Shown one piece after another: positions 9,819 through 40,324 of a stretch of DNA of 43,103 nt. The notes below the pieces were generated by a model, which had not been told where the DNA came from, did not search any database, and saw nothing but the letters and a program-made list of their open reading frames with translations. The translations under genes and the position numbers were made by a program. The stretch is from a virus: the IMG/VR virus record IMGVR_UViG_3300032307_000885, positions 1 to 43,103 of that record; one strand, written 5' to 3'. Each line of letters opens with the position of its first letter. Position 1 is the stretch's first letter.

Positions 9819-10428
9819 TTTAGAAACATTAGTAGATAAGTATCAAATGAAAATCCAAGGGGTATTACATATTGGAGCCCACTTTGGTGAAGAAAATGAT
9901 ATATATGATAAGTTGAAAATTGAAAATAGAATCTTTTTTGAACCACTGAAATCAAATTATAAAGTACTTCAAGAAAAATTACAGGATAAACATCCTTCAT
10001 ATAATGTGGCGTTAGGTAATGAAAATAAGAATATTTCTATGTATGTAGAAACCGCAAATTCCGGCCAATCAAGCTCGATTCTAAAACCATCAATACATCT
10101 TAAACAATATCCACATATACAATTTAACACGATGGAAGAAGTTGAAATGTTTCGACTGGATGACATGAAATTAAATTTGGAAAAATTTAATTTTATTAAC
10201 ATCGATGTTCAAGGGTATGAACTGGAGGTATTCAAAGGTGCAGTAAAAACTTTAGAGAACATAGATTTTATAATGTCCGAAATTAATAGAGATGAAGTTT
10301 ATGAGAATTGTACAAAAATAAATGAATTAACAGATTTCCTATCTGACTTTGGGTTTGACTTTGTAGAACAAACTTGGGATGGTGGAACATGGGGAGATGG
10401 ATTTTTTATAAAAAACAAACAAAAATAA
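9808..10428 (+). CDS. FkbM-type SAM-dependent methyltransferase
   Basis: A 206-residue class I methyltransferase. It shows VLHIGAHFGEENDIYDKL as the SAM-binding loop, IFFEPLKSNY (ribose-binding acid), NVALGN, and the FkbM-typical FINIDVQGYELEVFKGA near 129-145, followed by SEIN. FkbM proteins usually O-methylate sugars or polyketides, so here it could cap a glycan made by the neighbouring glycosyltransferases. It overlaps the fucosyltransferase gene by 11 bases and shares one base with the next ATG (TAATG). Confidence 0.85.
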   Translation: MLLNLETLVDKYQMKIQGVLHIGAHFGEENDIYDKLKIENRIFFEPLKSNYKVLQEKLQDKHPSYNVALGNENKNISMYVETANSGQSSSILKPSIHLKQYPHIQFNTMEEVEMFRLDDMKLNLEKFNFINIDVQGYELEVFKGAVKTLENIDFIMSEINRDEVYENCTKINELTDFLSDFGFDFVEQTWDGGTWGDGFFIKNKQK

Positions 10429-11246
10429 TGGTAAAACTTAACATGTTATCAAGGAACTTTTCTCATGACAAAGGTTCTACCGCAAACAAGGCTCCACAAT
10501 TAATCGAATGGTGTTTCAATAGTTATGAAAATCCCATTTCAGTGTATTTGGATAATGACTTATTCAAAGGAATTGAGGACCATAAAAATGATGGAGGTGA
10601 AAAGAAAAAATTTCTTTGGGTAATAGAATCTCTTAAATTTGATGGAGGGGCAACGAATAATATCAAAAGTAACTTGGAAAGTGTATTAGAAACTTTTGAG
10701 CAAATTTGGACACATAATGATGAATTATTGGCGTTGCACCCAAAGTTCAAATGGACACCGGCATATGGAAGTTATATAAAAGACTTTGGTATCCATCCAA
10801 AAACAAAATTAGCATCGATGATTACCTCCAATAAGAGATGGACAAAACAACATGAAATTCGTCACGATTTTGCCACCGTCAATAAAGACAAAATCGATGT
10901 TTTTGGTCGAGGAATTAAAGAGATTCCTAATAAAGAAATTGGTTTGAATGATTATATGTTTTCTTTTGCAGTTGAAAATGATACATACGACACTTATTTC
11001 ACTGAAAAAATATTAGATTGTTTTGCAACTGGAACTATTCCAGTTTATATGGGAACACCAAAAGTGGTTGAATATTTTAACTCCGATGGGATTATATTTT
11101 TCGATGGAACATTTGATTTATCACAACTAACTGAAGAATTATATTACTCCAAAATGGATGCAATAAAAGATAATTATGACAGAGTCCAAAAATATAGTAT
11201 TTTGGATGACTGGATTTTTGAAAACTACTTGAGTCAATATGTCTAA
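10428..11246 (+). CDS. GT10 alpha-1,3-fucosyltransferase-like
   Basis: The open frame extends upstream to 10374, but that extension lies inside the methyltransferase gene. The ATG at 10428, sharing one base with that stop, gives a sensible 272-residue product. Residues 176-210 (YMFSFAVEND, then DTYFTEKILDCFATGTIPVYMGTP) match the GT10 donor-binding signature in which Glu and Lys contact GDP-fucose. The 157-170 segment (VFGRGIKEIPNKE) matches the strand before it. GT10 enzymes transfer fucose in alpha-1,3/4 linkage to GlcNAc or related sugars. With the GT11 gene it forms a fucosylation pair. Confidence 0.82.
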   Translation: MVKLNMLSRNFSHDKGSTANKAPQLIEWCFNSYENPISVYLDNDLFKGIEDHKNDGGEKKKFLWVIESLKFDGGATNNIKSNLESVLETFEQIWTHNDELLALHPKFKWTPAYGSYIKDFGIHPKTKLASMITSNKRWTKQHEIRHDFATVNKDKIDVFGRGIKEIPNKEIGLNDYMFSFAVENDTYDTYFTEKILDCFATGTIPVYMGTPKVVEYFNSDGIIFFDGTFDLSQLTEELYYSKMDAIKDNYDRVQKYSILDDWIFENYLSQYV

Positions 11247-11949
11247 AATTTGTTTGATAAATCAACCAGCAGGTATTGGAGATATCTTATTTCTTCAAAA
11301 ATTTGTTGACATTAAATTATCTGAAGGATTCGAGGTTATTTTTCCGGTTAATCCAAATTTAGTTTATCTCAATGATTATATAAAAAAACCTAATTTGAAA
11401 TTCGTATCTATTGACGAGGATTTTTCGCATAAAGGAGTCTATTACAGTAATAAATCAATCAAAGAGGAAAATTTTGAATTTTACCCATTCAATGTTGCCG
11501 ACCAACATATTGCAGGGTCTTGTTTAGAAGCGAAATATACATTGGCAAACCAAGATTTTAATGATTGGCAAAATCATTTAGTATGGGAAAGAAATACTGA
11601 AAAAGAAGATCAACTTTTTTATAATCACCTGAATCTGAAAGACGACGATAAATATATAATCGTATCGAATACTTGGGGGACACCTCCAGCAACCGCAAAA
11701 AGAGATATGGTGATAAATAGCCCTCACCGACTCATAAACATACAACTATTAGATGGATATACACCATTCGATTGGGGAAAGGTTTTGGAAAATGCTACTG
11801 AAATTTATATGATTGATACATCATTCAATTATATTTTAGAAAAGTTAGATTTGAAAGCCGAAAACTTATATTTGTACTCAAGGTTTACTCCGCCTAATTT
11901 TTCACATATAATTAATTTATTCAAAAAAAATTGGATTTATCAAAAATAA
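11239..11949 (+). CDS. Probable GT9/heptosyltransferase-like protein
   Basis: A 236-residue protein that begins ICLINQPAGIGDILFLQKF, a pattern typical of the N-terminus of GT9-like GT-B proteins (G-x-G-D). Later segments KYIIVSNTWGTPP and ATEIYMIDTSFNYILEKL resemble the donor-half strands that end in the S/T-S/T-F/G loop. It is shorter than full heptosyltransferases (about 320-350 residues), so one lobe is reduced. It overlaps the preceding fucosyltransferase by 8 bases. The fold is a moderate-confidence call and the sugar is unknown. Confidence 0.6.
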   Translation: MSKICLINQPAGIGDILFLQKFVDIKLSEGFEVIFPVNPNLVYLNDYIKKPNLKFVSIDEDFSHKGVYYSNKSIKEENFEFYPFNVADQHIAGSCLEAKYTLANQDFNDWQNHLVWERNTEKEDQLFYNHLNLKDDDKYIIVSNTWGTPPATAKRDMVINSPHRLINIQLLDGYTPFDWGKVLENATEIYMIDTSFNYILEKLDLKAENLYLYSRFTPPNFSHIINLFKKNWIYQK

Positions 11950-11950
11950 A

Positions 11951-12934
11951 ATGAAGAAAAAGTTTTTAATTACAGGAATTACAGGTTTTGCAGGTCCTAA
12001 TTTAGCAAAACTATTGTTGAAAGAAGGGCATGAAGTACATGGGGTAATACGTTGTCCCAACGGTCGGCAAACCGATATTTTAGATATTTTAACGTTGGAA
12101 GAATTGGATTCCATAGTTTTCCATAATTTAGATTTGAGAATGTTTAGTAGTGTACAAAAACTTTTCTCAAACCATCAGTTTGATGGAGTTTTCCATTTAG
12201 CAGCTCAATCTCACCCTCCAACAAGTTTTTCAGACCCAATATTAACTTTCGAAGAAAATGTAACCGCCAGTGTAAACATTATTACATGTTTGGAGAAAAC
12301 GGAAACTAAATTGATGTTTTGTTCAACTTCAGAGGTTTATGGTGACACATGTAAAGATAGAGGTATTTTGAAAGTTACTGACCCTCTCACCCCTCATAAC
12401 CCTTATGCCGCATCTAAAGCCGCTATAGACTTATACTTACAAGAAAGATTTAAGAATGGTTATGTAAAAGGGTTTATTACCCGAGCGTTTTCACACACCG
12501 GACCAAGAAGAGGGTTCAACTTTTCTATATCATCAGACGCTTACCAAATCGCTAAAATGGTTTTAGGGAAACAAGAAAAAGTACTTCGAATTGGTAACTT
12601 ACAGACCGAACGAGTTGTAATCGATGTGCGTGATTGTGTTAACGCCTATTACAAGTTAATGATGACTGATGAATCTAACGGAAAAGTTTTTAATATTTGT
12701 GGTAAAGATGTTTGTAAAATGCAATATTTTACAGACAAATTGATTGAAGCGTCTGGTATACCTTATGATGAAATTGAGCAAAGAATTGATAACAAACTAT
12801 ATCGGCCAATTGATATCCAAGTTCAAATTGGTGATTCTACTGAAGTAACTGAAATTACCGATTGGGTACCAGAATACACTATAGAACAAACTATGAGTGA
12901 CTTATTAAACTATTGGATTAATAAATTAAAATAA
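11951..12934 (+). CDS. gmd: GDP-mannose 4,6-dehydratase
   Basis: SDR-type enzyme making GDP-4-keto-6-deoxy-D-mannose, the substrate of the Fcl encoded at 3962-4885. Seen: GITGFAG (Gly9, Gly12, Gly15), HLAAQSHPPTSF, CSTSEVYG with Ser125/Thr126 and the catalytic-type Glu128, PYAASK with Tyr152 and Lys156, RAFSHTGPRRG, and GNLQTERVVIDVRD. The last is the family motif, although the usual ARRDFTDVRD is altered to ERVVIDVRD. At 327 residues it is slightly shorter than enterobacterial Gmd (about 370). GDP-4-keto-6-deoxymannose reductase or a UDP-sugar dehydratase would be the alternative calls, but the SSEVYG and GPRRG motifs favour Gmd. Confidence 0.85.
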   Translation: MKKKFLITGITGFAGPNLAKLLLKEGHEVHGVIRCPNGRQTDILDILTLEELDSIVFHNLDLRMFSSVQKLFSNHQFDGVFHLAAQSHPPTSFSDPILTFEENVTASVNIITCLEKTETKLMFCSTSEVYGDTCKDRGILKVTDPLTPHNPYAASKAAIDLYLQERFKNGYVKGFITRAFSHTGPRRGFNFSISSDAYQIAKMVLGKQEKVLRIGNLQTERVVIDVRDCVNAYYKLMMTDESNGKVFNICGKDVCKMQYFTDKLIEASGIPYDEIEQRIDNKLYRPIDIQVQIGDSTEVTEITDWVPEYTIEQTMSDLLNYWINKLK

Positions 12935-12935
12935 A

Positions 12936-13514
12936 ATGGGAGCAATATATCAACACGATGTCCCCGAATATATTGAAAAATATAATTTGGAAAATTATAT
13001 CGAGACTGGTACGGGCGTTGGGGATTGTCTTCAACACGCGTTAAAGTTCGATTTCAAAAAACTAATCTCCGTAGAAATTTATCCAAAGGTTTTTGAGGGT
13101 GCGGTCAATAAATTCAAAGATACGAAAGCCGAAGTTTTACTTGGTAATTCTTATGAAGTTCTACCATCTATTCTAAATAATCTTGAAGGAAATGTCTTAT
13201 TTTTTCTCGATGCACATTTTCCTGGCGCGGATTTTCACTACGAAACTTATAATAGTACAACAGATTACGACACTAGATTGCCTTTGGAAAAAGAAGTTAG
13301 GACTATTAAACAGCATAGAGATACTACAAAAGATGTTTTCATAATTGACGATTTAAGAGTTTATGAAGATAATAATTATTCCGATGGAAATTGGCCACTA
13401 AAAAGTCAGGTAGGTGGAGATGGAATAGATTTTATTTTTGAACTCTTCCAAGACACTCATAACATTGAGAGAGACTTAAGACATCAAGGATTTTTAATAA
13501 TTACACCAAAATGA
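12936..13514 (+). CDS. Predicted SAM-dependent methyltransferase
   Basis: A 192-residue protein with a compact Rossmann methyltransferase pattern. YIETGTGVGDCLQHAL (about 22-37) looks like the SAM glycine loop, ISVEIYPKVF the acidic strand 2, VLLGNSYEVLP strand 3, and NVLFFLDAHFPGAD (about 85-98) strand 4 with a possible active-site Asp-Ala-His. DVFIIDDLRVYEDN follows as strand 5. The substrate may be a sugar of the same pathway. It starts one base after gmd and ends in an ATGA overlap with the next glycosyltransferase. Confidence 0.65.
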   Translation: MGAIYQHDVPEYIEKYNLENYIETGTGVGDCLQHALKFDFKKLISVEIYPKVFEGAVNKFKDTKAEVLLGNSYEVLPSILNNLEGNVLFFLDAHFPGADFHYETYNSTTDYDTRLPLEKEVRTIKQHRDTTKDVFIIDDLRVYEDNNYSDGNWPLKSQVGGDGIDFIFELFQDTHNIERDLRHQGFLIITPK

Positions 13515-14308
13515 TAACAGTTGTCAGAAATTTTGAAGCAAACTATCCTGAAGACCCAATACGGTTTTTCAACTTTGAAGACTATAACGAAGACACAAAA
13601 GATTGTATCCTGTTTATAGGCGCTCACCCACATAATTCAATTTCAAATCCAAACAACTTACCTAAATATTTTTTATCTACCGAAGAACAAACTTGGGATT
13701 TAGACAGTACCGACAGGTATGTACCATTTGTAGAAAAAATTTTCACAATTTGTGATCCAAAGTTTACCAACCGAGCAAAGAGAGAATTTTCTTTTTTCCC
13801 GACTAATCAAAAAATGTTACCTACTACTTTTGATAAAGAATACGACGTGATATACACAGGGTACGCAAATGCTACTCACGTATCTGATTTACTTGGAGTA
13901 ATTCGTAACTACAACTATGTTTATGCGTCTTTTGGATCAACTAATCCATTCGTTACACATACTAATGTCACTTATGCCGATAAGTTGAGTTTGATTAGTA
14001 AAAGTAAAATTACTGTTGTACACAACCTAAATGGAAACAACACACCACAACTAAAAAGTAGACCATTCGAAGCTGCGTTATGTAAGTCCTTAATACTTTG
14101 TAAAAAAGATGATTGGAATTTTATTGAAACTTGGTATGAAGAAGGTAAAGAATTTTTATACTATACAGACGGGAATGATTTGAAAGAGAAAATAGATGAA
14201 GTACTATCTAACTATTCAAGTTACCAAGAAATAATAAACAACGCGTATCAAAGGTCTATTGAAAATTACACAACTGAAGCCTTTGTTAATAAACATTTCA
14301 AGAAATGA
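13511..14308 (+). CDS. CgeB/GT4-like glycosyltransferase
   Basis: A 265-residue protein. Its C-terminal half carries the GT-B donor-site pattern YADKLSLISKSKITVVHNL, then PQLKSRPFEAALCKSLILC, followed by EFLYYTDGNDLKEKI. This matches the glycosyl transferase family 1 domain found in CgeB-type and spore-coat-type proteins. The middle strand YDVIYTGYANATHVSDLLG is the usual start of the C-terminal Rossmann lobe. The N-terminal lobe is short and divergent. ATGA overlaps on both sides bind it to flanking methyltransferases. Confidence 0.72.
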   Translation: MITVVRNFEANYPEDPIRFFNFEDYNEDTKDCILFIGAHPHNSISNPNNLPKYFLSTEEQTWDLDSTDRYVPFVEKIFTICDPKFTNRAKREFSFFPTNQKMLPTTFDKEYDVIYTGYANATHVSDLLGVIRNYNYVYASFGSTNPFVTHTNVTYADKLSLISKSKITVVHNLNGNNTPQLKSRPFEAALCKSLILCKKDDWNFIETWYEEGKEFLYYTDGNDLKEKIDEVLSNYSSYQEIINNAYQRSIENYTTEAFVNKHFKK

Positions 14309-14952
14309 GTAAATATTTTTTTACCGTTGACAATCAATCAAATTGGATTGTTGACATCTATAATAAATTTATACCATTCAAAAATGATGGATTTATTGTT
14401 GAAATAGGCGTGGGACATACTTTTTCGGGAGTGGATAACATTTTGCCAAGTAATGTTGATTCATTACAAAGATGTGGAAGTAATTCTTCAGACTTATTAG
14501 ATTTGGGATGGAGTGGTATCTTAATTGAACCAGTACTGGAATATTGTGAAGAAGCTAAAATTGCACATGAAAAAAATTTAGATAGAGTCAAAATTGTAAA
14601 TTTTGGTGCATCTGATTCTGAAGGTGAAGTTTTTTTATCTTTAGGAGACGCGTTATCTAACACACATTCACATTCTCCTCGTTACCCTTGGATTGGTCGA
14701 AAAGTGGCCATAAAAGAAACCTCTAAAATTTTGGGAGAAAATGGATGTCCAAAAGAAATTGATATTATGTCAATTGACGTAGAAGGACATGAATTAAATG
14801 TCATAAATGGTATCGATTTCACAAAACATTCCCCTCATATTATCATAGTTGAAACAAACATTATACCTTCTATTGAAATATCAAAAATTCTTCCAAATAA
14901 CTATATTCAGGAAAAAACTGATGGGTTGAACACAGTGTGGGTTAGGATATAA
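14305..14952 (+). CDS. FkbM-type methyltransferase (second copy)
   Basis: A 215-residue class I methyltransferase of the FkbM type. DGFIVEIGVGHTFSGVDN forms the SAM loop, WSGILIEPVLEYCEEAK the strand 2 acid, VNFGASDSEG strand 3, and IDIMSIDVEGHELNVINGID the FkbM-typical strand 4 motif, followed by IIIVETN. It differs clearly from the FkbM gene at 9808, so this is not a recent duplication. Two methyltransferases of this type suggest that two positions of the glycan are modified. ATGA overlap upstream; 14 bases separate it from the next gene. Confidence 0.82.
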   Translation: MSKYFFTVDNQSNWIVDIYNKFIPFKNDGFIVEIGVGHTFSGVDNILPSNVDSLQRCGSNSSDLLDLGWSGILIEPVLEYCEEAKIAHEKNLDRVKIVNFGASDSEGEVFLSLGDALSNTHSHSPRYPWIGRKVAIKETSKILGENGCPKEIDIMSIDVEGHELNVINGIDFTKHSPHIIIVETNIIPSIEISKILPNNYIQEKTDGLNTVWVRI

Positions 14953-14966
14953 TACTCAAAAAAAAT

Positions 14967-15902
14967 ATGAAAAAATTTATTATAACAACAACAATCAATA
15001 GTCCAACAGAAGCTACCATCAAATTTTGTCAAATTGCAAATAAAAAGGATTTTCAATTTGTAATAGTAGGAGATACTAAAACTCCACATGATGAATATCA
15101 TAAATTAGAAGAACGATACGAAAACGTAATTTATCTTACTCCCGAAATTCAATCTGAGTTATATCCAGATTTGTCGGAAATAATTGGATGGAAAACTATT
15201 CAAAGACGTAATATTGGATTCGTTTACGCTTACGAAAACGGAGCTGAAGTCGTTGCAACAGTCGATGATGATAATATACCTTATGATTCTTGGGGGGATT
15301 CAATTTTATTAGGCCAAGAAATCGAAGTGGATGAGTTCGAAAATACTTCATGCCCTTACTTCGATGCAATATCGACAACAGAACACAATAATTTATGGCA
15401 TAGAGGATTTCCAATCGAATATCTCCAAGTTAAAAATGATATTGAATATAAAGGAAAAACTAAAATTACTCCTTTAGTTCAAGCTGAGTTTTGGGATGGT
15501 GACCCAGATATAGATGCAATTTGTAGACTAAGTAAAAAACCTATCGTTAAGTTCAAATCTTTTGAACCTTTTACCACAAAACAATTAACACCGTTCAACT
15601 CTCAGAATACATTTTTACACAGAAGTGTTCTTAAGTATTATTCAGTATTTCCTTATACTGGAAGAATGGACGACATTTGGGGGGCATATGTGATGCAACA
15701 CTATTTTCCAAATTCAGTAGTTTTTACAAAGGCATCAGTTTATCAAGCAAGAAACCCACAAGACCTTGTTAAAAACTTGGAAAATGAAGTGATTGGTTAT
15801 AGAGGAACATTGAATCTTATAAATAACATCGAAAAATTTAGGGATTTACTTCCCACTAAAACTGTCGAATATTTTGACATATATCAAAAATACTTTAACT
15901 AA
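14967..15902 (+). CDS. STELLO/RGP-like GT-A glycosyltransferase
   Basis: A 311-residue protein starting KKFIITTTINSPTEATIKF and continuing DFQFVIVGDTKTP. Residues 80-103 read RRNIGFVYAYENGAE then ATVDDDNIP, with a D-D-D metal motif at 100-102. RRNIG next to a DDD site, and a Trp/Asp-rich acceptor region (FWDGDPDIDAICRLS), resemble the DUF288/STELLO and reversibly-glycosylated-polypeptide families, better known from eukaryotes. The start lies in an A-run (AAAAAAAATATG) without a Shine-Dalgarno sequence. It shares one base with the next ATG. The GT-A call is good; the subfamily is inference. Confidence 0.68.
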   Translation: MKKFIITTTINSPTEATIKFCQIANKKDFQFVIVGDTKTPHDEYHKLEERYENVIYLTPEIQSELYPDLSEIIGWKTIQRRNIGFVYAYENGAEVVATVDDDNIPYDSWGDSILLGQEIEVDEFENTSCPYFDAISTTEHNNLWHRGFPIEYLQVKNDIEYKGKTKITPLVQAEFWDGDPDIDAICRLSKKPIVKFKSFEPFTTKQLTPFNSQNTFLHRSVLKYYSVFPYTGRMDDIWGAYVMQHYFPNSVVFTKASVYQARNPQDLVKNLENEVIGYRGTLNLINNIEKFRDLLPTKTVEYFDIYQKYFN

Positions 15903-16996
15903 TGAAAAAAATTGTAGTATTAGGTGGAGGAGGGTTCATAGGTGGGCACTTGGCCAAAAGATTAAAAGAAGAAGGTAATCATGTTAGAATATGTGACATA
16001 AAAAAACATGAATATTTTTTCCAAGATGAAATTTGTCATGAATTTATTTTAGGGGATTTGACCGACCCTAAAGTTGTTGAATTGGTTATTGAAGAGGGAG
16101 TAGATGAAGTCTATCAACTCGCAGCCGACATGGGTGGTGCATTGTATATTTTTACAGGAGAACATGATGCGGATGTTATGTACAATTCTGCAACAATCAA
16201 TCTTAATGTTGCACGTGAAGCTGTGAAGAAAAAAGTTGGAAAATTATTCTATTCATCTTCCGCTTGTATGTATCCTGAACATAATCAATTAGACCCTGAT
16301 AATCCAAACTGTGAAGAATCTTCCGCATATCCTGCAAATCCTGATTCAGAATATGGTTGGGAAAAATTATTCTCTGAAAGATTATATTTGGCGTTTAGTA
16401 GAAACTATAATTTGAATATTAGAATTGGAAGATTCCACAATATTTTTGGGCCACAAGGTACATGGATTGGTGGACGAGAAAAATCACCTGCCGCCATGTG
16501 TAGAAAAGCTGCGGAAACTGAAAATGGTGGAGAGATTGAAGTTTGGGGTAATGGATTACAGACTCGTTCATTCTTATATGTTGACGAGTGTGTTGAAGCG
16601 GTTCTTAAATTAATGGAATCTGACTTCGAGGGACCTGTAAACATTGGTAGTGAAGAAATGGTAACAATCAACCAATTGGCTAAAATGGCAATAGAAATCG
16701 CTGAAAAAGATATAAACATTAAAAATATTGAAGGTGAAGAATTTACTCAAAAGTATGGATTCAAATGTCCGTTAGGAGTAAAAGGTAGAAACTCCGATAA
16801 CAAATTATACCGAGAAAAAATTGGATGGGAAGTGAGTCAACCTCTATCCGTGGGATTAAAGAAAACTTATCAATGGATAAAGTCTCAAGTTGATAAAAAA
16901 CAAAATGAGACCGTATGGATATATGAGAGTCCTGATGGAGGAAACACCGTATATAAAAGAGAATCGCAAAGTACTGAAAAAATTAAGATAAAATAA
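15902..16996 (+). CDS. GDP-mannose 3,5-epimerase-like SDR enzyme
   Basis: A 364-residue extended SDR protein strongly resembling plant-type GDP-mannose 3,5-epimerase (GME), which makes GDP-L-galactose and GDP-L-gulose. Seen: GGGGFIGG (Gly8, Gly11, Gly14), AADMGGA, SSSACMYPE with the catalytic-type Cys122, YGWEK (Tyr151, Lys155), RFHNIFGPQGTW, GGREKSPAAMCRK with Lys194 at the second acid/base position, GLQTRSFLYVDEC, and GVKGRNSDN near the C-terminus. The remaining 30 or so residues are a basic tail beyond the fold. It follows the STELLO-like gene with a one-base overlap. Confidence 0.85.
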   Translation: MKKIVVLGGGGFIGGHLAKRLKEEGNHVRICDIKKHEYFFQDEICHEFILGDLTDPKVVELVIEEGVDEVYQLAADMGGALYIFTGEHDADVMYNSATINLNVAREAVKKKVGKLFYSSSACMYPEHNQLDPDNPNCEESSAYPANPDSEYGWEKLFSERLYLAFSRNYNLNIRIGRFHNIFGPQGTWIGGREKSPAAMCRKAAETENGGEIEVWGNGLQTRSFLYVDECVEAVLKLMESDFEGPVNIGSEEMVTINQLAKMAIEIAEKDINIKNIEGEEFTQKYGFKCPLGVKGRNSDNKLYREKIGWEVSQPLSVGLKKTYQWIKSQVDKKQNETVWIYESPDGGNTVYKRESQSTEKIKIK

Positions 16997-20073: not shown

Positions 20074-20880
20074 ATGAACAATACACTATCATTATCAGTA
20101 ATACTACCCATAAAATCTTCCAAGGCGAAAGATTTTGATGAGTACTTCGAAAAAGCAATTTCATCTCTTAAAAATCAACAAGTTGGATTTGAAGAATTGG
20201 TAATTGTTCATTCACAAGAACAATCTCTCATTGACTTATTAGACTCATATGATTTTGGTAATTTGAATGTTACAAAATTATTGTGGGACCAAGAACCAAA
20301 TTACGCAAACCAAGTTAATTTTGGAATAAAAAATGCGAAGGGAGCTTGGATTTCTCTTTTTGAATTTGATGATGAATATTCATCAATATGGTTTAAGAAT
20401 GTAAAAAAATATGTCGAGTCATTTCCTGAAGTACAAATGTTTTTACCTGTCGTGGTTGAGACAGATGAAAAGGGATTATTTGCTGGATTTACAAATGAAG
20501 CAACATTTGCCGCTAATTTCTCGCAAGAAATGGGGATTTTGACCAACGATACTTTACAAGAATATCAAAATTTCCAAACCGCAGGTTCTGTAATTAAAAA
20601 ATCTGTTATTGAGGATTTTGGAGGGTTCAAACCATCAATCAAATTGACGTTTATTTATGAGTTTTTATTACGATTAACATATAACTCTGTTTCAGTAATG
20701 ACAATTCCAAGACTTGGTTACAAACACGTAAACCTTAGAGAAGGGTCTATTTTTTGGAACTATAAATTTGGAGACAGTAAAATGGTTGAAGATGAAGTAA
20801 AGTTTTGGATTCAAACCGCAAAAAGAGAATATTTTTTCACGGACGATAGATCCATAAAATATCAATCCGAAAATGCTTAA
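20074..20880 (+). CDS. GT2 family glycosyltransferase
   Basis: The frame also opens at a TTG at 20041 inside the previous gene, but the ATG at 20074, one base after that stop, is the better start and gives 268 residues. The protein begins LSLSVILPIKSSKAKDF, continues with FEELVIVHSQEQ, and has GAWISLFEFDDEYSSIWF, where F-D-D is the metal-binding D-x-D equivalent. FQTAGSVIKKSVIEDFGGF is the usual GT2 acceptor-side segment. No membrane helix. It shares one base with the sigma factor gene (TAATG). Confidence 0.8.
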   Translation: MNNTLSLSVILPIKSSKAKDFDEYFEKAISSLKNQQVGFEELVIVHSQEQSLIDLLDSYDFGNLNVTKLLWDQEPNYANQVNFGIKNAKGAWISLFEFDDEYSSIWFKNVKKYVESFPEVQMFLPVVVETDEKGLFAGFTNEATFAANFSQEMGILTNDTLQEYQNFQTAGSVIKKSVIEDFGGFKPSIKLTFIYEFLLRLTYNSVSVMTIPRLGYKHVNLREGSIFWNYKFGDSKMVEDEVKFWIQTAKREYFFTDDRSIKYQSENA

Positions 20881-21626
20881 TGCAAGATTCACTCTCTGCT
20901 ACAACAGAGGATGTTTTATCAAAAAAACGAGGTAGAAAGGCAGTTAAAGAAAATTATTTTGATGTAAGAGAAGAAGAGGCAGTTAGAAAATTTCTAATTG
21001 CCGAATCTTCATACGAAAAAAATAAAATTTATAATCAATTTTTAAGGTCTCCTTTAGATAAAATGATTTCCTCAATCATTAGACGATATAAATTATATCG
21101 TAAAGATATGGATTTTGAGGAAATTCATACAGATACGCATTCCTTTCTTATGACTAAGGTCGATAAGTTTAAGCCTGATAAAAATAAAAAGGCTTATTCT
21201 TATTTTGGAACTATTTGTAAAAATTATCTGATGGGTCAAATTATCAAAGACCAAAAAGAAACCAACCGAAAAATATCATACGAAGATATTTCATCAAGTC
21301 TTGAGGAAAGACCTGATATGTCATACAGAATTGATGATGATGTAATCGAAACAGATTACGTTATCAACCAGTATTTGGATGAGTTAAAAATTTATATTGA
21401 ATCAGAACAATTAAACGATAATGAAAAAAAATTGGGTTATGCATTAATTGATTTATTTGATAATTACGAAACAATCTTTTCGGGGGCCGATAATAATAAA
21501 TTCAATAAGAATGTTATATTATTATCTCTCCGAGAAATGACTAACTTAAGTACTAAAGAAATACGTAGTTCAATCAAAAGATTCAAAAAATTATATATAG
21601 TAATTCAATCAAGAATTAAAAACTAA
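20880..21626 (+). CDS. gp55-like late-transcription sigma factor
   Basis: A 248-residue protein with the sigma-70 region 2-like arrangement of T4 gp55-type late sigma factors. Helical EEEAVRKFLIAESSYEK and PLDKMISSIIRRYKLYRKD precede EIHTDTHSFLMTKVDKFKPDKNKKAYSYFG (in pieces to 110). AYSYFGTICKNYLMGQI (105-121) is the region 2.4-like promoter helix. It would direct host RNA polymerase to late promoters. T4 gp55 is 185 residues, so this one has an added basic N-terminal tail (KKRGRK, 15-20) and a longer C-terminus. Confidence 0.85.
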   Translation: MQDSLSATTEDVLSKKRGRKAVKENYFDVREEEAVRKFLIAESSYEKNKIYNQFLRSPLDKMISSIIRRYKLYRKDMDFEEIHTDTHSFLMTKVDKFKPDKNKKAYSYFGTICKNYLMGQIIKDQKETNRKISYEDISSSLEERPDMSYRIDDDVIETDYVINQYLDELKIYIESEQLNDNEKKLGYALIDLFDNYETIFSGADNNKFNKNVILLSLREMTNLSTKEIRSSIKRFKKLYIVIQSRIKN

Positions 21627-30745: not shown

Positions 30746-32536
30746 TTATCTCAATTCTCTCAAGTCGAATGTTCTAACTCCATCAACTGTGATTCTACCG
30801 TAGAATCTGTTATTAACCATTTTCTTAGCGTATCTAGTCATGATACCTTTGATTGGTGTAAAGTTGAATGGATTGTACATTGTAGGAGTTAATTGTAGAG
30901 GTACATACGGTGCGTAGATGTAACCAGTGTCCAATAGAGAAGTTCCTTTGTGACCCATCAATACTTGGTTTGGTGGGAAGTAAGGGTCTCTATACACTTG
31001 ATAACGACCTGCTAATGTACCAACTCTTTCAATACCCATGTTGTACTGATCCTGCTCAGGAGCTGCGTTTGATACGTGGAAGTATTCCAAGTCATCAAAG
31101 ATAGCACTGATTTCAGAAGAAACAACGATCCAGTTAGCTCCACCTCTTAATGTAGATTTGTGGATTTGTGCTGAAATTTGGTTGATTGCGGTGATAAGAG
31201 TTTGGTTCCAATCTTTCTGAGTATAAGGAACTGCGTTAGATCCTAATCTCTTCCATCCATTGTAATCCCATCTTAAGTTCCAAGCTGCTCCTTTTCTAAG
31301 GTCTCTCAAGATTTCTCTATCGATTTCAGCTGCAACTTGCTCAGATAACAATGCAGTTAATTCAGCTTCAGCGTCGATGTTGTGGAATGCCGCAACGTCC
31401 TGAGCCATTTCTGGAGACCACTGTGCTCTTAATTTTCTTTCAGTTACAGAAACTGTTACTGACATAAGGTCGAATGAAACTTCACCAATCTTATCTTCAA
31501 ATTCCAAGTTCTTATAGATTCTATAAGTAGCTGTGAATGCGTTGTCAGCCGCCGCAGTAGATGCGAATGTTGAACCTGTGTAACCATCTAATGAACCACC
31601 ACAAGTGATACATACTGGTACTTGAAGGTCAACTTCTAAGTAGATTTTACCTTCCGCATCACAAAGGTTGTCATACTGACCACCATCTGTCTTACTGTTA
31701 GGGAATACCAACGTAGCGTTGTTGTTACCATACTGAACGATACCTTTACCATATCTCTGAGTTACAACTCTGAACAAGTAAGGGTTAGAAGTGTTTGCAG
31801 AAGTGTAAGCGTTTCCAGCAACACCATATACGGTCAAATCAGATAAGAAAGCTTCGTTATCCATTGGTTGACCATCAGGACCGATTAACTTACCAGCTCC
31901 ATCAGACGCGAAACCTGACATAACTATCAATACCTTTCTGTAGTTATCCAAAGTGTAAGCAGAAGGTACCAAGTTGTCTGCTAACCATGCTACAGTTCCA
32001 ACCTGTGCAGTGATTGCAGAATATTGTCCTTTAGAATAATCGAACAATCCTGGAGGATCCAAAGCTGGTTCGTTACCTTCATAGAATCTGTCGTAAAGGT
32101 CCTTAGTGTTATTGTAGTCATAACCACTGTTTGGAGTTTGACCATTCGCAGCGTTTGGTGAACCATAAGGTGCGTAGTGCTCAGTAGTACCTGGTTGGTA
32201 AGACTGAATGTTAGGTACGAAGTAGAATAATTTACCGATAGGTAAGTTCATAGCTTGTACTGAAACGATATCGTTTGCTAATAATTTAGAGAAAACTCTT
32301 CTTACGATAGGGAAAACAACTGTTTCAAATGCACCTGTGTCAGATGTAGATGATGCTTCGTTAATTAAGTGAGAAGCTTGGTTTTCATAAAGTTGAGCTA
32401 CGTTCTCTCTCATGTGACCTTTAAGACCCTCAAGGAATCCTAACTTGTCCCATTTGTTGATTGTGTCTTCTTTGATAACTTTAAGGTGCTTAAGACCGAT
32501 GTTACCTACAAGACCTGATTCTAATAATGCTCCCAT
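30746..32536 (-). CDS. Major capsid protein (gp23-like)
   Basis: A 596-residue protein of the T4 gp23 type. Near the N-terminus QLYENQASHLINE/ASS (49-63) resembles the T4 prohead propeptide end, with a predicted gp21-type cut between Glu60 and Ala61 (T4: after Glu65). It then reads FPIVRRVFSKLLANDIVSVQAMNLPIGKLFY in pieces (74-105), the conserved start of the mature shell fold. The C-terminal part has VASEISAIFDDL-like and KGTSLLDTGYIYAPYVPL segments typical of the family. It follows the scaffold gene by 47 bases and ends at a strong terminator. At 596 residues it is longer than T4 gp23 (521), so an insertion domain is likely. Confidence 0.93.
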   Translation of the reverse strand: MGALLESGLVGNIGLKHLKVIKEDTINKWDKLGFLEGLKGHMRENVAQLYENQASHLINEASSTSDTGAFETVVFPIVRRVFSKLLANDIVSVQAMNLPIGKLFYFVPNIQSYQPGTTEHYAPYGSPNAANGQTPNSGYDYNNTKDLYDRFYEGNEPALDPPGLFDYSKGQYSAITAQVGTVAWLADNLVPSAYTLDNYRKVLIVMSGFASDGAGKLIGPDGQPMDNEAFLSDLTVYGVAGNAYTSANTSNPYLFRVVTQRYGKGIVQYGNNNATLVFPNSKTDGGQYDNLCDAEGKIYLEVDLQVPVCITCGGSLDGYTGSTFASTAAADNAFTATYRIYKNLEFEDKIGEVSFDLMSVTVSVTERKLRAQWSPEMAQDVAAFHNIDAEAELTALLSEQVAAEIDREILRDLRKGAAWNLRWDYNGWKRLGSNAVPYTQKDWNQTLITAINQISAQIHKSTLRGGANWIVVSSEISAIFDDLEYFHVSNAAPEQDQYNMGIERVGTLAGRYQVYRDPYFPPNQVLMGHKGTSLLDTGYIYAPYVPLQLTPTMYNPFNFTPIKGIMTRYAKKMVNNRFYGRITVDGVRTFDLRELR

Positions 32537-34230: not shown

Positions 34231-34255
34231 AAAAAAGTGGTCGATTGACCACTTT
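34231..34255 (-). terminator. Rho-independent terminator after DUF4494-like gene
   Basis: AAAGTGGTC (34234-34242) pairs perfectly with GACCACTTT (34247-34255) around a GATT loop. On the minus strand it is followed by six T and then a TATTTT stretch. It closes the protease/DUF4494 unit, separating it from the scaffold and capsid unit. The T-rich flank on the plus strand is weaker. Confidence 0.8.
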
Positions 34256-34492: not shown

Positions 34493-35209
34493 TTATTTTC
34501 CTAAAAAATCGTCTAATTTTCTCATTAAGTCAACCGACTTTCCAACATAGTCGTTATTTTGTTTAGATTTTATTTCTTCTTCTAAGTTTTCTTCGTACTT
34601 ACTTCTATCGTCGGGATTAGAAAATAAATATGCTCCTGGTGTTGATGGAGAAGATACCAAGTCAAAACATATCAGTTCAAAATCATCTTGTACTTCATTT
34701 CTTTCTCCAACTTTTTTTAATGAACCAACACCTCTTGATGAAATACCTAAGGTTACTCCTTGTCTCATTAAGTTTGCCGCTTGGTCTCCTTTAGTTGAAA
34801 CAATGCCTCTTTCATGAAACCCTGGAGATGTCAATAATTTGAGTTTTCCCATTAGTATATTTTTATCCCACCATATGTCTGTGATGATGTGAGATACTCT
34901 GTCTAAGTCAATTAATGACGACTCAGGGTGGTTTAATTCTGATGTGGATAAACCCTTAGAAATTGCTTGTTTATATCTTTCAGATTCTCTTTTCAAAATC
35001 CTTTCAGGATACGTTCTACCATTTCTATTAGGTGTGTCATATTTTTGAAGAACTGCATAAAACTCAAATGGATTTCTATAATCTAAATTGGCGGCTTCTT
35101 TTAGAACATCAATATTATGAGTGTCTTTGGGAGAAACCCAACCTGCATCCATTTCAATCAATATACCATGGCCAAGTTCGCTCGCTTCTAAAATTCTTAA
35201 ATTTTTCAT
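34493..35209 (-). CDS. Prohead protease (gp21-like)
   Basis: A 238-residue serine protease of the T4 prohead type (family S80). Seen: NRNGRTYPERIL (61-72), ELNHP with the putative catalytic His94, GISSRGVGS (155-163) with the nucleophile candidates Ser157/Ser158, and LVSSPSTPGA (184-193). It would cut scaffold, capsid protein and tagged internal proteins after (Leu/Ile)-x-Glu. Its gene lies between two hypothetical genes and the DUF4494-like gene, in T4-like order relative to portal, scaffold and capsid. A TATTTATC motif lies 12 bases upstream. Confidence 0.9.
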   Translation of the reverse strand: MKNLRILEASELGHGILIEMDAGWVSPKDTHNIDVLKEAANLDYRNPFEFYAVLQKYDTPNRNGRTYPERILKRESERYKQAISKGLSTSELNHPESSLIDLDRVSHIITDIWWDKNILMGKLKLLTSPGFHERGIVSTKGDQAANLMRQGVTLGISSRGVGSLKKVGERNEVQDDFELICFDLVSSPSTPGAYLFSNPDDRSKYEENLEEEIKSKQNNDYVGKSVDLMRKLDDFLGK

Positions 35210-35248: not shown

Positions 35249-35686
35249 CTAGTTTTCGTCTTTTTTTGAAATTGAAAATTCAAAGTATTTGTTTTGAACT
35301 ACGTTATTTTTATAGATGGATTTTACTATAGTTTTTATTGATTCTTTGAGTTCATCACACTTGAAATCCATTTCACGTTGGGTGTATAGATTAATTTCCA
35401 AATTAAAGAATGATTTTTTTCCTTTTGATATCCCACTTGTTCGAAGGTCCAAATCAACAATATTTTTTTCTTGAAAGATTTTACAATCTATCGATTCATA
35501 AACTGAATTTTTTATTTCTCGTCCCAAACCTGAGACAACTCGGTTCCAATTATCTAACTCTTCTTTTGGTGTAACCCACGATTGAATATTTATGTAAACT
35601 GATTTTAAGTTTTTGGAATCTACTGTCCCATACTGTGATTTTATGGGATTGAACAGGTTAAGTTTAACACTTTTTCCTTTTTTCAT
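35249..35686 (-). CDS. Hypothetical protein in prohead operon (145 aa)
   Basis: A 145-residue mixed alpha/beta protein with a basic start (MKKGKSVKLNLFNP), a middle strand VYINIQSWVTPKEELDNW and a C-terminal helix (CDELKESIKTIVKSIYKN). No signal peptide, membrane helix or known motif is seen. It lies between portal and protease, where T4 keeps its small prohead core genes (67, 68), but it has no obvious likeness to them. The gene begins 93 bases from the divergent bS21 gene. Confidence 0.55.
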   Translation of the reverse strand: MKKGKSVKLNLFNPIKSQYGTVDSKNLKSVYINIQSWVTPKEELDNWNRVVSGLGREIKNSVYESIDCKIFQEKNIVDLDLRTSGISKGKKSFFNLEINLYTQREMDFKCDELKESIKTIVKSIYKNNVVQNKYFEFSISKKDEN

Positions 35687-35740
35687 TAATAATGATATTA
35701 TGTACGTTTATTAATGAAATTATATACATAATATGTATGA

Positions 35741-35763
35741 TTGTCAAAATTTTTTTATATTTG
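35741..35763 (+). promoter_or_regulatory. Candidate promoter for bS21 gene
   Basis: TTGTCA (35741-35746) and TATATTTG (35756-35763), an exact TAnnTTTG box, lie 16 bases upstream of the bS21 ATG. The layout matches the candidates at 2007 and 27875. The gap also contains partly palindromic AT-rich sequence (around 35717-35735) toward the divergent gene. Confidence 0.45.
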
Positions 35764-35779
35764 TGGATATTTCTAATAT

Positions 35780-35971
35780 ATGATAATAATAAAAATAAAT
35801 CAGGGTAATCCCCTTGAGAAGGCTCTCAAGACCCTAAAGTCAAAAGTAATCAAAACAAAACAAAATCAAATTTTATTTGATAGGAAACAATATACAAAAA
35901 AATCTGTACTTAGAAGAGCACAGATTTTGAAGGCAAAACATATTCAAAGTCTTAAAGACAAATCAAATTGA
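35780..35971 (+). CDS. rpsU: Ribosomal protein bS21 homologue
   Basis: A 63-residue basic protein matching bS21 along its whole length: MIIIKINQGNPLEKALKTLK lines up with the family start (II.V..GE..E.ALKR.K), RKQYTKKSVLRRAQILKAKH with the family end. Phage-encoded bS21 is known in diverse viruses and can be taken into host ribosomes at the 30S platform near the anti-Shine-Dalgarno. The gene has its own promoter candidate and no Shine-Dalgarno. It stands alone on the plus strand in the middle of the minus-strand head operon and overlaps the convergent gene by 9 bases. Confidence 0.85.
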   Translation: MIIIKINQGNPLEKALKTLKSKVIKTKQNQILFDRKQYTKKSVLRRAQILKAKHIQSLKDKSN

Positions 35972-36661
35972 TTCTTCCAAATTTTTTAATTTCAAAAAGT
36001 TTAATTGGTCGAATTTTTCAGATTTAATTTTGTCAATCGTTTCTGAAATTTTTGTTTTCATATCCTGTGAGTCTTCATTATTTTGAAGATTAGTTAGTTT
36101 GGATATTGTACTTTCTCTTAATGTTTCGAATTTTGTCTCCAAAGTTTTGGTATCTTCAGAAACTATTTGGAAAAATTCTTTTTTAGAATTTTCATCCAAA
36201 GTAAGTATGTAGTTATTAACTGTTTGGTTTGCCACCGCAACCATAGAACTAATTGGGATATTTATACTTTCCTTAATAGATTCTTTCGTTGATGTAATAA
36301 CCTTTATAATACTTTTCTTCGCATTAACTCTTTCAAGTAAATCTACTCCTTGTGTATAAACTAAGGTATCAATATCGGAATATTTGTTTTCAGTTTTTTC
36401 GGAAAGTGTGATTGGAAGTTTAATACTTGACAAAACTTTGTTTAATAGACTAATCCCTTCTTCAATAAAATATTTTGCATCCTGTTCACTTAACCCTTGG
36501 GGTGAACTCAGTTGGTCATATATTGCGTATGCTTTAGACATAGCTTTATTACTCAAAACGTTGTGTTTGAATTCTCGCAAAGTCTTCTTGAATTCTACTT
36601 CATTTTTGTAGGATTCTAAGAGATTTTTTTCAATTAGGGATTTTACTATTCCGAAGGTCAT
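35963..36661 (-). CDS. Hypothetical protein in gp67/gp68 position (232 aa)
   Basis: A 232-residue, almost entirely helical protein. The start (MTFGIVKSLIEKNLLESY, then FKKTLREFKHNVLSNKAMSK) is well-defined and includes an L-L-E/S site at residues 14-17. The rest is charged and helical, with coiled-coil character in 140-225. It lies right after the portal gene, where T4 encodes its small prohead core proteins. From position and helicity I propose a prohead core role, with low certainty. A TATTTATT motif lies 13 bases upstream. Confidence 0.6.
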   Translation of the reverse strand: MTFGIVKSLIEKNLLESYKNEVEFKKTLREFKHNVLSNKAMSKAYAIYDQLSSPQGLSEQDAKYFIEEGISLLNKVLSSIKLPITLSEKTENKYSDIDTLVYTQGVDLLERVNAKKSIIKVITSTKESIKESINIPISSMVAVANQTVNNYILTLDENSKKEFFQIVSEDTKTLETKFETLRESTISKLTNLQNNEDSQDMKTKISETIDKIKSEKFDQLNFLKLKNLEESI

Positions 36662-36682: not shown

Positions 36683-38527
36683 TTATGAATTTAATAACTT
36701 ATCTAACTCTTTTGAAATTTCTCCCAAAGAATCTTGTGCCTGACCCAAATTTATTATCTGTGAACCTTCGATTAAATTGTTTTCCACTAAAATATTGAGG
36801 TCTTTTTTCCTTGATTCCGGTGTTACTTCAGCTGGTGGAGCTTCTTCAGCGCCACCTGCCGGTGGTAATTCAGGTTCAGGAATCTCTCCTCCTCCACCGA
36901 ATGATGGTGGTGGTCCCAATTCTTCTCCACCATCCGTAGTTGTCGCGGCACCAGCCGTCGGAGTTGCGCCTGTTTGACTACCATACAATTTGTCGATATT
37001 ATCAAACAAACCTGTTTTGGTTATCACAGTTGGAGTTGCTTTAAGTTCTTCACCAACCGCTCTTTCAATTCTTTGTTGTTGTAAGTCTAAACGAACTTCG
37101 TCATCAGACCATCCAAATATGTGTTTCTTAGCCCATGTAGATGAAGTTGCCTGTATTCCATTTCCTGGATCTGCAACCAAATCTTTATACAACAATACTT
37201 TTTCTTTCCAAACATCAATCTTCAACAAATCCGCTTGAGTTGATGGGTTTGTTAATCCAAGTGTAAAGTTTGATAATTCATCTTCAAACCCCAATAAAAA
37301 TAAATGTACAATGGCAATCTTATTCAGTTCCGCCAACATACTTTTTTGGATTCTATTAATTGTACGAGCAAATCTAATGTCTTGTAACGCCAAGTTTTTA
37401 CCATCACCTACCACTTCTTCAAAACCCAAGAACGCTTTTGGTACTCGTAATGCAGTTAATAACTTCTTTTGAATATATTCAATATCGGCAATTTCAGACA
37501 AGTTAGTTGCTCCAGGTAATGTAGTAATTGGATCTGGTGCTGCCGGATCACGAACAGGAATAAAGAAATCTTGGTCAACAGCCATTTGATTGAATCTCAT
37601 GTCTACGTTTCCTGTCTTACTATCTACAACTTGTTCTCTTTTGAATTTGTTTGCAACACGCTGTACATACGCTTCTACATCATCATCATTCATGTTACCG
37701 ACAAAGACCTTAAATAACTTTCTTTCGGGTGCTCTTGATGTTCGATAAATCAACATAGCGTCTTCACAAAGTAATAATTGTTTCCAAATACGTCTAGCCT
37801 TTTCTAACATAGACGTTCCATAAGGAAGTTTTCTATCATCGCCTAATAATCTGAAGTGAGCAATTTCCCATGATTGGAATTCCATATTCTTATTCTTCCA
37901 AGTAAAGTGTAATGCTTTCTTGTCTTTATCAACTTCATTTTTTACATCGACAGATATTTTACCACTTGCTCCAACTTCATGTCTTTCGATTTCTATAGTT
38001 GGTAATTGTTGACATCCAACAATACCTTTCTCAGGATCTAATTTAAGATACACGAAATTGTCACCATATTTACAGGTATTCCGTGTCCACATTGGAAGGT
38101 TGGTATTAACATCTAAAGCATTGTTAAACAAATCCGCTAATACCCCTTTTATTCTTTTTGATTCAGAATAAATTTGTAGAATAAATCCATCTTCATTTGT
38201 TGTGGTGGATTCTTCGGCATAAATGTCTAACGCCGCAGAAATCTCAGGAGTATATTCCATCGACTCATAATCGTATTGAGCAGATAACCTTGTTGGTTCA
38301 TAGTAAATCGCCTGAGAATAAAGATTGTTTTCTACCTTAGCCCATTGATTGGTAAGGTAATATGTTTGTTGTGCTTGGAGTTTTTCTTTTTCGTATTCTT
38401 CTCTACTTTTGGTTCGCAGAAGTTCCTTTTTATCAAACTTGAATGTCGGATAGTCTTGATTGAGAAGTGAATTAGGTCCAAATGTTTGTGACAATCTTTG
38501 CCAAACTGTCATATTTTGTTCTGCCAT
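36683..38527 (-). CDS. Portal vertex protein (gp20-like)
   Basis: A 614-residue portal of the T4 type. The N-terminal half has YESMEYTPEISAALDIYAEESTT (about 85-107, in pieces), the gp20 signature, and NTCKYGDNFVYLKLD (about 145-159). Further on, IYRTSRAPERKLFKVFVGNM (about 260-279), FNQMAVDQDFFIPVRD, and KAFLGFEEVVGDGKNLA follow in family order, then LQDIRFARTINRIQKSML. The C-terminal 110 residues are Pro, Gly and Glu-rich (GGGEIPEPELPPAGG), an unusual low-complexity tail before a final helix. It forms the dodecameric ring for packaging and neck attachment. Confidence 0.92.
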   Translation of the reverse strand: MAEQNMTVWQRLSQTFGPNSLLNQDYPTFKFDKKELLRTKSREEYEKEKLQAQQTYYLTNQWAKVENNLYSQAIYYEPTRLSAQYDYESMEYTPEISAALDIYAEESTTTNEDGFILQIYSESKRIKGVLADLFNNALDVNTNLPMWTRNTCKYGDNFVYLKLDPEKGIVGCQQLPTIEIERHEVGASGKISVDVKNEVDKDKKALHFTWKNKNMEFQSWEIAHFRLLGDDRKLPYGTSMLEKARRIWKQLLLCEDAMLIYRTSRAPERKLFKVFVGNMNDDDVEAYVQRVANKFKREQVVDSKTGNVDMRFNQMAVDQDFFIPVRDPAAPDPITTLPGATNLSEIADIEYIQKKLLTALRVPKAFLGFEEVVGDGKNLALQDIRFARTINRIQKSMLAELNKIAIVHLFLLGFEDELSNFTLGLTNPSTQADLLKIDVWKEKVLLYKDLVADPGNGIQATSSTWAKKHIFGWSDDEVRLDLQQQRIERAVGEELKATPTVITKTGLFDNIDKLYGSQTGATPTAGAATTTDGGEELGPPPSFGGGGEIPEPELPPAGGAEEAPPAEVTPESRKKDLNILVENNLIEGSQIINLGQAQDSLGEISKELDKLLNS

Positions 38528-38563: not shown

Positions 38564-40324
38564 TTATTTAGCGCCAAATAACCAACCATATTTTTGATAA
38601 TCTGCTTTACTGGCGCCATTATTATTTAGGCTTGGGTCTCTATTCATTTGAGGTACCATTGGATTAAAAAATTCTGAAGAATTTTTATTCTCATTCACAA
38701 CTGATGCCCATGAATTCAACATTGCCTTAGTATGATTAACAACTTTTGCTAATGATTGAAATGATTTTTCCGCAATATAAATTGCCATCGATAATCCCAT
38801 AATACAGTCATCATGTTGACCCTTTTGGTGATCTGGTCTTCCATTTATATAGACGAAGGTATTCATCTCGTTGTATGTTCTATGAGAATATATTTTGAAT
38901 CCATGTCTAACACCTTCTTCAAATGCGGCAATAATCTGAACTCGTTTTGTATTAAAATTGATTCCAGGGATTTTGTCATTAATTTTCGGATCCCATTTCC
39001 ACTTATTAGATGTATCAACCCCATCAACATAAAGGCCTGGTTGGTATTGTAATTCTTGCATTTTTCTTGCGGTAGATACTCCCATACCACCAGTGATATC
39101 AATTACACAAAATGCGTTATACATCGTTCCCCACTTGTAAGCAATTTCCGCCAACACATCAGGAGGAACTTTCCCAACATATTCTAAAACTTGTTCCCTT
39201 TCATCAAAATCTATAATTTGTATGGATGAAAAATCTTCTGAATCCCCACGAGAAACGTCAACACCCATTACATACTTGTGGCCATTTACAGGTTCCTTGA
39301 AAATCCATAAGGCATTACCCATAAGTTTTGCTTGAGGGTCTCTTAACTGATTTTTTGCAATATTCTGCATTAAATCCGAATCAAATACGTTATCTCCTGA
39401 ACCCAAGAAATTACATTCCAATTCTTGGGCAACTTTACGTCTATCGTATTTAAGTTTTTTTACCATCCCCTCAAACCATGATGAACAAGGTTTGTATCCC
39501 TTGTCAATATAATCTGTAACTATACCGTGGTCTCTTTCATATGGATTATCAGTTGCCAAATCAATAACCGTATCTATTGGATAATCTTCTCTATTTAGTA
39601 GATAGTGTACTAAATCACTTGTTTTAACCACATACAAATCTTTAGTATATCTCGGGTCTCTGTACCAAAACATTTCAGAGATTTTGAAGTCGTTCATACC
39701 TCTTAATGCTTGGTCGTAGATTTCATAATAAATTGGGTCGTATCCATTTGGTGTTGAAACCACAATAACTTTACCACCCGTTGATAGTGAAGCCATACAA
39801 GCTGACCAGAAATCTCCGTCAGCCTCGATAAAGGCAGCTTCGTCAAAAATAAGAATAGTAGGAGTATAACCTCTCAACGCATCTTTCGAAGTTGCAACGG
39901 CTTTGACTTCACATCCATTATTAAGTTTGAAATGTCTTTGAGAATTTTTTTCGGCGGAAAACCCAATACCAACCCATGCTGGCCATTGTTCAATAAAACC
40001 TCTAATTTTATTTGCCATTTCAACAGAAGTATCCAACTTGTTGGCAATGATTAGAATTTTCTCAGGTTTTTCTTTTCTCGCGAAGGCTAATTTTTTTGAA
40101 GACCAAGCTGCAGTTACGGTTGATACACCTGCTTGTCTATACTTGAGGGCGATATTTTCGTTATATTTTTCGTAATCTTCAAGTAGTGAAACTTGGTCAG
40201 GAAAAAGTTCTAATGGGACATATTTTGATACCGTATTATCGTATGTCTGTAAATAAGTACGAAGTGCATAAGGGGTATTCCTCATACACTTCGTATATTC
40301 TATTATTAATTGTTCTTTGTTCAC
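38564..40324 (-). CDS. Terminase large subunit (gp17-like)
   Basis: A 586-residue packaging motor beginning at GTG (40322-40324). ATPase domain: YRQAGVST (62-69) as the Walker A variant of terminases, RGYTPTILIFDEAAF (151-165) with the Walker B Asp161/Glu162, and VSTPNG (189-194) as motif III. Nuclease domain: YVMGVDVSRGDSEDF (351-365, Asp356), AFCVIDITGG (404-413, Asp409) and HDDCIMGLSMA (504-514, Asp505 or Asp506). This is the full RNase H-fold triad. It follows the 424-residue unknown gene by 21 bases and precedes portal, as in T4-like phages. Confidence 0.94.
   Translation of the reverse strand: MNKEQLIIEYTKCMRNTPYALRTYLQTYDNTVSKYVPLELFPDQVSLLEDYEKYNENIALKYRQAGVSTVTAAWSSKKLAFARKEKPEKILIIANKLDTSVEMANKIRGFIEQWPAWVGIGFSAEKNSQRHFKLNNGCEVKAVATSKDALRGYTPTILIFDEAAFIEADGDFWSACMASLSTGGKVIVVSTPNGYDPIYYEIYDQALRGMNDFKISEMFWYRDPRYTKDLYVVKTSDLVHYLLNREDYPIDTVIDLATDNPYERDHGIVTDYIDKGYKPCSSWFEGMVKKLKYDRRKVAQELECNFLGSGDNVFDSDLMQNIAKNQLRDPQAKLMGNALWIFKEPVNGHKYVMGVDVSRGDSEDFSSIQIIDFDEREQVLEYVGKVPPDVLAEIAYKWGTMYNAFCVIDITGGMGVSTARKMQELQYQPGLYVDGVDTSNKWKWDPKINDKIPGINFNTKRVQIIAAFEEGVRHGFKIYSHRTYNEMNTFVYINGRPDHQKGQHDDCIMGLSMAIYIAEKSFQSLAKVVNHTKAMLNSWASVVNENKNSSEFFNPMVPQMNRDPSLNNNGASKADYQKYGWLFGAK

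Follow-up and report, generated by a model that had tools for sequence, protein, structure and literature searches.

The window analysed here, the whole 43,103-nt stretch of the viral record IMGVR_UViG_3300032307_000885, carries a gene for the ribosomal protein bS21 that lacks the Shine-Dalgarno (SD) signal through which flavobacteria control their own copy, rpsU. The reading we prefer, and to which we give an even chance, is that a late phage bS21, made outside SD feedback, keeps ribosomes blind to SDs and may switch off host rpsU. bS21 is reportedly the ribosomal protein that phages carry most often. The gene is the following:

35780..35971, + strand: phage bS21 (rpsU-like), 63 aa, with His54; PF01165 profile, relatives at loci L002-L140

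Judged by similarity, this ORF is a genuine bS21 gene, as the original prediction had stated: The PF01165 profile matches it at E 2.4e-7 (30.8 bits, exceeding the curated cut-off of 27), and the closest solved chain is bS21 of F. johnsoniae (7jil_z, E 1.8e-8). Relatives came from two scans, each contributing the best 80 loci out of more than 560 related stretches; they include the contigs G001 (IMGVR_UViG_3300027804_002812, 326 kb) and G002 (317 kb), and their genes were called by a simple longest-ORF rule. Among the matches listed, the phage protein is 78-100% identical across a broad range of viral contigs, and dN/dS values of 0.04-0.30 for the coding sequence indicate purifying selection. 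A search for relatives in cultured phages returned only four records matching bS21, all of them huge metagenomic phages. Residue 54, His in the window, is either Tyr or His in each of the 40 distinct family proteins among the matches listed, and Tyr in 68/69 distinct cellular bS21 proteins. Changes specific to the family fall in the N-terminal half (T18, S21, V23, I24, K27 and Q28) and at K41, L44 and L50; the N-terminal ones are invariant or nearly so among the phage matches listed, at positions where cellular bS21 mostly has R18, R21, F23, D24, G/K27 and T/V28. The aromatic residue 54 and the bS21 core are conserved, as would be expected for ribosome binding.

bS21 is the sole + strand gene amid the - strand head genes of a T4-like phage, in the order major capsid protein (MCP), acidic scaffold-like ORF, DUF4494, prohead protease, divergent gene, bS21, convergent gene, portal and terminase:

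30746..32536, - strand: major capsid protein gp23 (PF07068, E 5.5e-72)
34493..35209, - strand: prohead protease (PF03420, E 4.6e-22), with a ATATTTATCT box 12-21 nt before its ATG (PWM score 8.5)
35249..35686, - strand: divergent partner, 145 aa, candidate 'bS21_CN' by conserved adjacency
35963..36661, - strand: convergent neighbour, 232 aa, no family, conserved in relatives; shares 9 bp with the 3' end of bS21
36683..38527, - strand: T4-like portal protein gp20 (PF07230, E 3.9e-74)
38564..40324, - strand: terminase large subunit (PF03237, E 1.5e-14; phrog_2)

The divergent gene adjoins bS21 in 79/79 assessable loci among the matches listed (the 80th stops at the contig edge), and the two start codons are 80-100 bp apart in 130 loci among these matches. 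The same pair is kept in a second, diverged phage lineage (L407-L426), where it is located between protease and portal. A structure model of the divergent protein (pLDDT 76) has no PDB match at E <= 0.001 (best E 0.07) and matches one uncharacterised phage protein in BFVD (E 4e-6); these matches being uninformative, the attempt to read a function from the predicted fold was dropped. No relatives of this gene were found among cultured phages. Elsewhere in the window, a hairpin between the DUF4494 gene and the scaffold gene (34234-34255, AAAGTGGTC...GACCACTTT), which has T-runs after it on either strand, resembles a bidirectional terminator. A long + strand run of ORFs (2047-16996) resembles glycosyltransferases, sugar epimerases and FkbM-type methyltransferases when the translations are judged by eye; glycosyltransferase-, epimerase- and methyltransferase-like genes have been reported in bS21-encoding phages (Chen et al. 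2022, PMC9723584).

How does this phage compare with those known to encode bS21? Chen et al. (PMC9723584) described an opposite-strand bS21 in the head cluster of freshwater Bacteroidetes phages, found it highly expressed together with structural genes, and proposed late expression and ribosome swapping on the basis of metatranscriptome data. They likewise noted the aromatic residue 54, as well as a co-transcribed, co-evolving opposite-strand neighbour, 'bS21_CN', which is probably our 145-aa divergent gene, the convergent gene being the alternative candidate. Their myoviruses share with the present phage an opposite-strand bS21 between hypothetical genes within the TerL/portal (PVP)/protease/MCP cluster, a GC content of about 31-34%, an aromatic amino acid at position 54 and a conserved opposite-strand partner. 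With genomes of 293-331 kb they fit our relatives of 317-326 kb, whereas the contig studied here is a 43-kb fragment, and its His54 is the minority state. The late-expression data give the timing for close relatives rather than for this contig. Unlike here, promoters and leaders were not examined in the main text of that study (PMC9723584). Both the gene and a probable late role for it had thus already been published.

To quantify the SD signal, we calculated how strongly nt -22 to -4 pair with AUCACCUCCUUUCU, the 3' tail of the 16S rRNA. The bS21 leader in the window reaches -3.1 kcal/mol, and the 32 distinct family leaders among the matches listed have a median of -1.1 kcal/mol, with one at or below -7, compared with a median of -17.5 kcal/mol in 80 cellular bS21 loci, 85% of which reach -13 or lower; these loci, nearly all from Flavobacteriaceae, were picked as the most similar to the phage protein. 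Pairing below -13 kcal/mol marks the extended SD of Flavobacteriales rpsU, and at -3.1 the phage gene falls outside it. The predicted lack of an SD is thus confirmed, and it extends to the family as a whole.

SD-less leaders are, however, the default in these phages, and bS21 is no exception within its own genome. The 390 genes of G001 have a median of -1.1 kcal/mol, with 2.6% at or below -7 versus 7.1% of random positions. SDs are also depleted among the 379 genes of G002 (Mann-Whitney p 5e-13), although the effect is milder for strong pairing (4.7% versus 7.6% of random positions at or below -7). Since this rule holds phage-wide, a missing SD alone does not show that selection has acted on bS21. 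The strongest SD outlier, G001 205094-205795 (- strand), pairs at -17.3 kcal/mol, as strongly as host rpsU, but this SD-like leader sits within the upstream ORF. Phage leaders are enriched in A at -3 and at -11 to -13, in flavobacterial style, and in F. johnsoniae initiation benefits from an A at -3 (PMC6847099). The bS21 leader in the window has T at -3 and at -6 and thus lacks the favourable A, so that its translation may be modest.

The host side of the argument comes from F. johnsoniae, where bS21 contributes to hiding the anti-SD and an extended SD mediates the autoregulation of rpsU (McNutt et al. 2023, PMC9976891), which bears out the premise from which the original prediction started. 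There, Tyr54 stacks on A1534 and guides the 16S tail into its pocket; ribosomes without bS21 start translation more efficiently on the rpsU mRNA with its strong SD and less efficiently on mRNAs lacking one; and bS21 is late-assembling and can dissociate, its loss lowering initiation on SD-less mRNAs (PMC9976891). Escape of the phage gene from this control, the next step in the prediction, follows for any host that has the loop, since the SD is absent; its absence is not peculiar to bS21, SD-less leaders being the phage rule. About 20% of Flavobacteriales do not meet the strong-SD criteria for rpsU. Compared with Flavobacteriales rpsU products, the phage protein belongs to the same family and shares the aromatic position 54 as well as residues such as K17, K20, K22, T26, K40, S42, R46 and Q56, but it is only about 43-53% identical, has R18, R21, F23, D24 and P41 replaced, and is preceded by a phage-type promoter and a leader without SD (-3.1 versus about -17.5 kcal/mol).

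Cellular and viral bS21 genes do not divide neatly by leader type. Several Flavobacteriaceae have two chromosomal bS21 genes, one with an SD of -17 to -23 kcal/mol and one SD-less (L431/L443, L433/L445, L446/L435), and Psychroflexus and relatives have a single, SD-less copy (single-copy genomes L436-L442). The SD-less chromosomal copies cluster together (support 98/96) and are possibly feedback-free paralogs within bacteria. Conversely, the bS21 gene of a 735-kb phage (LR756501.1, L428:3001-3201) encodes Tyr54 and has a strong SD, AAAGGAGGATAAATG, at -12.1 kcal/mol, unlike most genes nearby. Neither state is therefore diagnostic of virus or cell. The SD-less paralogs found here (in Mesonia, Psychroflexus and others) resemble the phage gene in encoding a bS21, theirs with Tyr54, without an SD; they differ in being chromosomal and in forming a cluster of their own, outside which the phage proteins fall in a weak tree. 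A derivation of the phage gene from such a paralog received no support from this tree, whose 64 columns resolve little.

What drives transcription of the phage gene? The start codons of bS21 and its divergent neighbour are separated by 93 bp, which contain the following elements:

35719..35747, - strand (read from 35747 to 35719): divergent-gene promoter TTGACA-N17-TATAAT with an A-tract upstream, 12/12 consensus match
35756..35763, + strand: TATATTTG, likely the promoter of the original prediction; aligns with TATATTTATA in G001
35766..35775, + strand: GATATTTCTA (GATATTTC at 35766), a degenerate TATTTATA box 4 nt before the ATG (PWM score 6.7), conserved in most of the family

By its motif, the best-conserved promoter in this gap is that of the divergent gene and points away from bS21: TTGAC[AT]-N17-TA-rich hexamer is kept in 44/44 distinct relatives among the matches listed. 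Its conservation accounts for the word GTCAAAATTTTTTT upstream of bS21, found in nearly all relatives among these matches; we rejected the idea that GTCAAAATTTTTTT serves bS21 as promoter or operator, for on the opposite strand it is the A-tract and -35 element of the divergent gene, at a fixed 17-nt spacing to the -10. A second element recurs throughout the phage, an upstream box of consensus TATTTATA, whose word ATATTTAT occurs in 34 regions versus 4.9 expected. At a score of 8, an EM model of this box detects 46% of upstream regions versus 16% on the reverse strand in the first genome, and 36% versus 13% in the second; in the window, the box precedes the scaffold, protease, portal and convergent genes. 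The copies before bS21 in the window score 6.2-7.1, a range reached by about 4-7% of random 60-mers, and TATATTTG is not conserved as such in the family alignment. A near-perfect box, TATATTTATAGA, is present at the matching place in the 326-kb relative G001, and in members of the diverged lineage (L411, L414, L418) a near-perfect ATATTTATTA box precedes the start codon of bS21 by 25-27 nt.

Promoters of the primary sigma factor of Bacteroidota have the form TTTG / TAnnTTTG. Upstream of bS21 we found no TAnnTTTG with a -33 element; the nearest TTG lies only 11 nt upstream of TATATTTG, and the G of this -7-like word is not conserved. The element singled out before is plausibly a weak copy of the phage-type box rather than a host TAnnTTTG promoter. 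The proposed stand-alone promoter is thus confirmed only in part: a candidate box is present, near-perfect in relatives yet degenerate in the window, and the strongest conserved promoter faces the divergent gene. Should transcription begin shortly downstream of the box, within a few bases as at other bacterial promoters, the bS21 leader would measure at most about 12 nt and could hardly accommodate an SD. A tentative candidate for the sigma factor acting at TATTTATA promoters is encoded in the window:

20880..21626, + strand: possible phage sigma factor (late-sigma candidate), sub-threshold Sigma70_r2 (E 0.019); tentative

Its product has no sigma-factor match among PDB sequences, and we do not assign a known late sigma factor to the TATTTATA box, this sub-threshold similarity being all that turned up.

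Together, this suggests the following scenario. A T4-like jumbo phage of Bacteroidota would produce a bS21 of its own, most probably late, using a TATTTATA promoter of phage type and a very short, SD-less leader. Because ribosomes lacking bS21 favour the strong-SD rpsU mRNA, the SD-less phage mRNA would lie outside the extended-SD feedback loop and suit ordinary, bS21-replete host ribosomes, by which it would be read. Once in ribosomes, the phage protein, with its aromatic residue 54 and conserved C-terminal core, should preserve the hiding of the anti-SD, not alter it, and would so keep ribosomes SD-blind, the condition most favourable to initiation on SD-less mRNAs of phage and host alike. 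The host's own loop would then hold rpsU translation low while phage bS21 gradually fills the bS21 site. McNutt et al. suggested that rpsU autoregulation would be a counter-defence (PMC9976891), and the arrangement proposed here would pre-empt it. A stronger form, in which the phage turns the host loop against the host, its SD-less late bS21 hiding the anti-SD so that the cell stops making its own and the pool drifts to the phage version without a protease or shut-off factor, perhaps with the divergent partner assisting the exchange, we regard as speculative, with perhaps one chance in four.

The main alternative, put forward with co-expression data by Chen et al. (PMC9723584), is a specialised ribosome, in which phage bS21 replaces the host's and its divergent N-terminal helix confers a preference for phage late mRNAs. 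The phage-specific residues T18 to Q28 are what such a preference might be built on. Yet phage leaders share the SD-less, A-rich class of the host, we saw no sequence mark on phage mRNAs, and a test of the selective step was not found in the literature. The genome-wide depletion of SDs in two relatives indicates that the phage uses host-like leaders; it speaks against SD-led phage leaders that an altered bS21 might favour and against bS21 redirecting ribosomes to special phage leaders. The original prediction of a viral bS21 favouring the leader types of the phage is thus not supported, the more so as residue 54 stays aromatic and should preserve the hiding of the anti-SD. We consider a selective ribosome unlikely, though not negligibly so.

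Slightly less probable still, in our judgement, is that phage bS21 serves as a spare part when host bS21 is short or lost, leaving mRNA choice unchanged and lacking an SD for the mere reason that phage mRNAs rarely use one. The phage-wide leader rule fits this explanation, as does a late-assembling, dissociable bS21 whose loss cuts SD-less initiation (PMC9976891); host rpsU autoregulation should refill ribosomes anyway, however, and the residues that are invariant in the phage family and specific to it point to something beyond a plain copy. A role away from the ribosome, in virion assembly or in binding phage RNA together with the divergent partner, would agree with the position of the pair in the head cluster of two diverged lineages, but is very improbable given the conserved bS21 core and aromatic residue 54, and the partner's predicted fold offers no functional hint.

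What would phage bS21 on host ribosomes mean for the infected cell? The host of Pelagibacter phage HTVC008M is not a Bacteroidota, and the context of a hidden anti-SD does not apply to it. This phage likewise encodes a bS21 (Mizuno et al. 2019), which, in the account given by Chen et al., enters E. coli 70S ribosomes (PMC6375957, as cited in PMC9723584). In hosts that autoregulate bS21 via access to the anti-SD, a phage copy outside the loop predicts falling translation of host rpsU once the phage protein is produced. If true, the missing feedback signal suggests a route by which a virus could take over the bS21 slot in host ribosomes.
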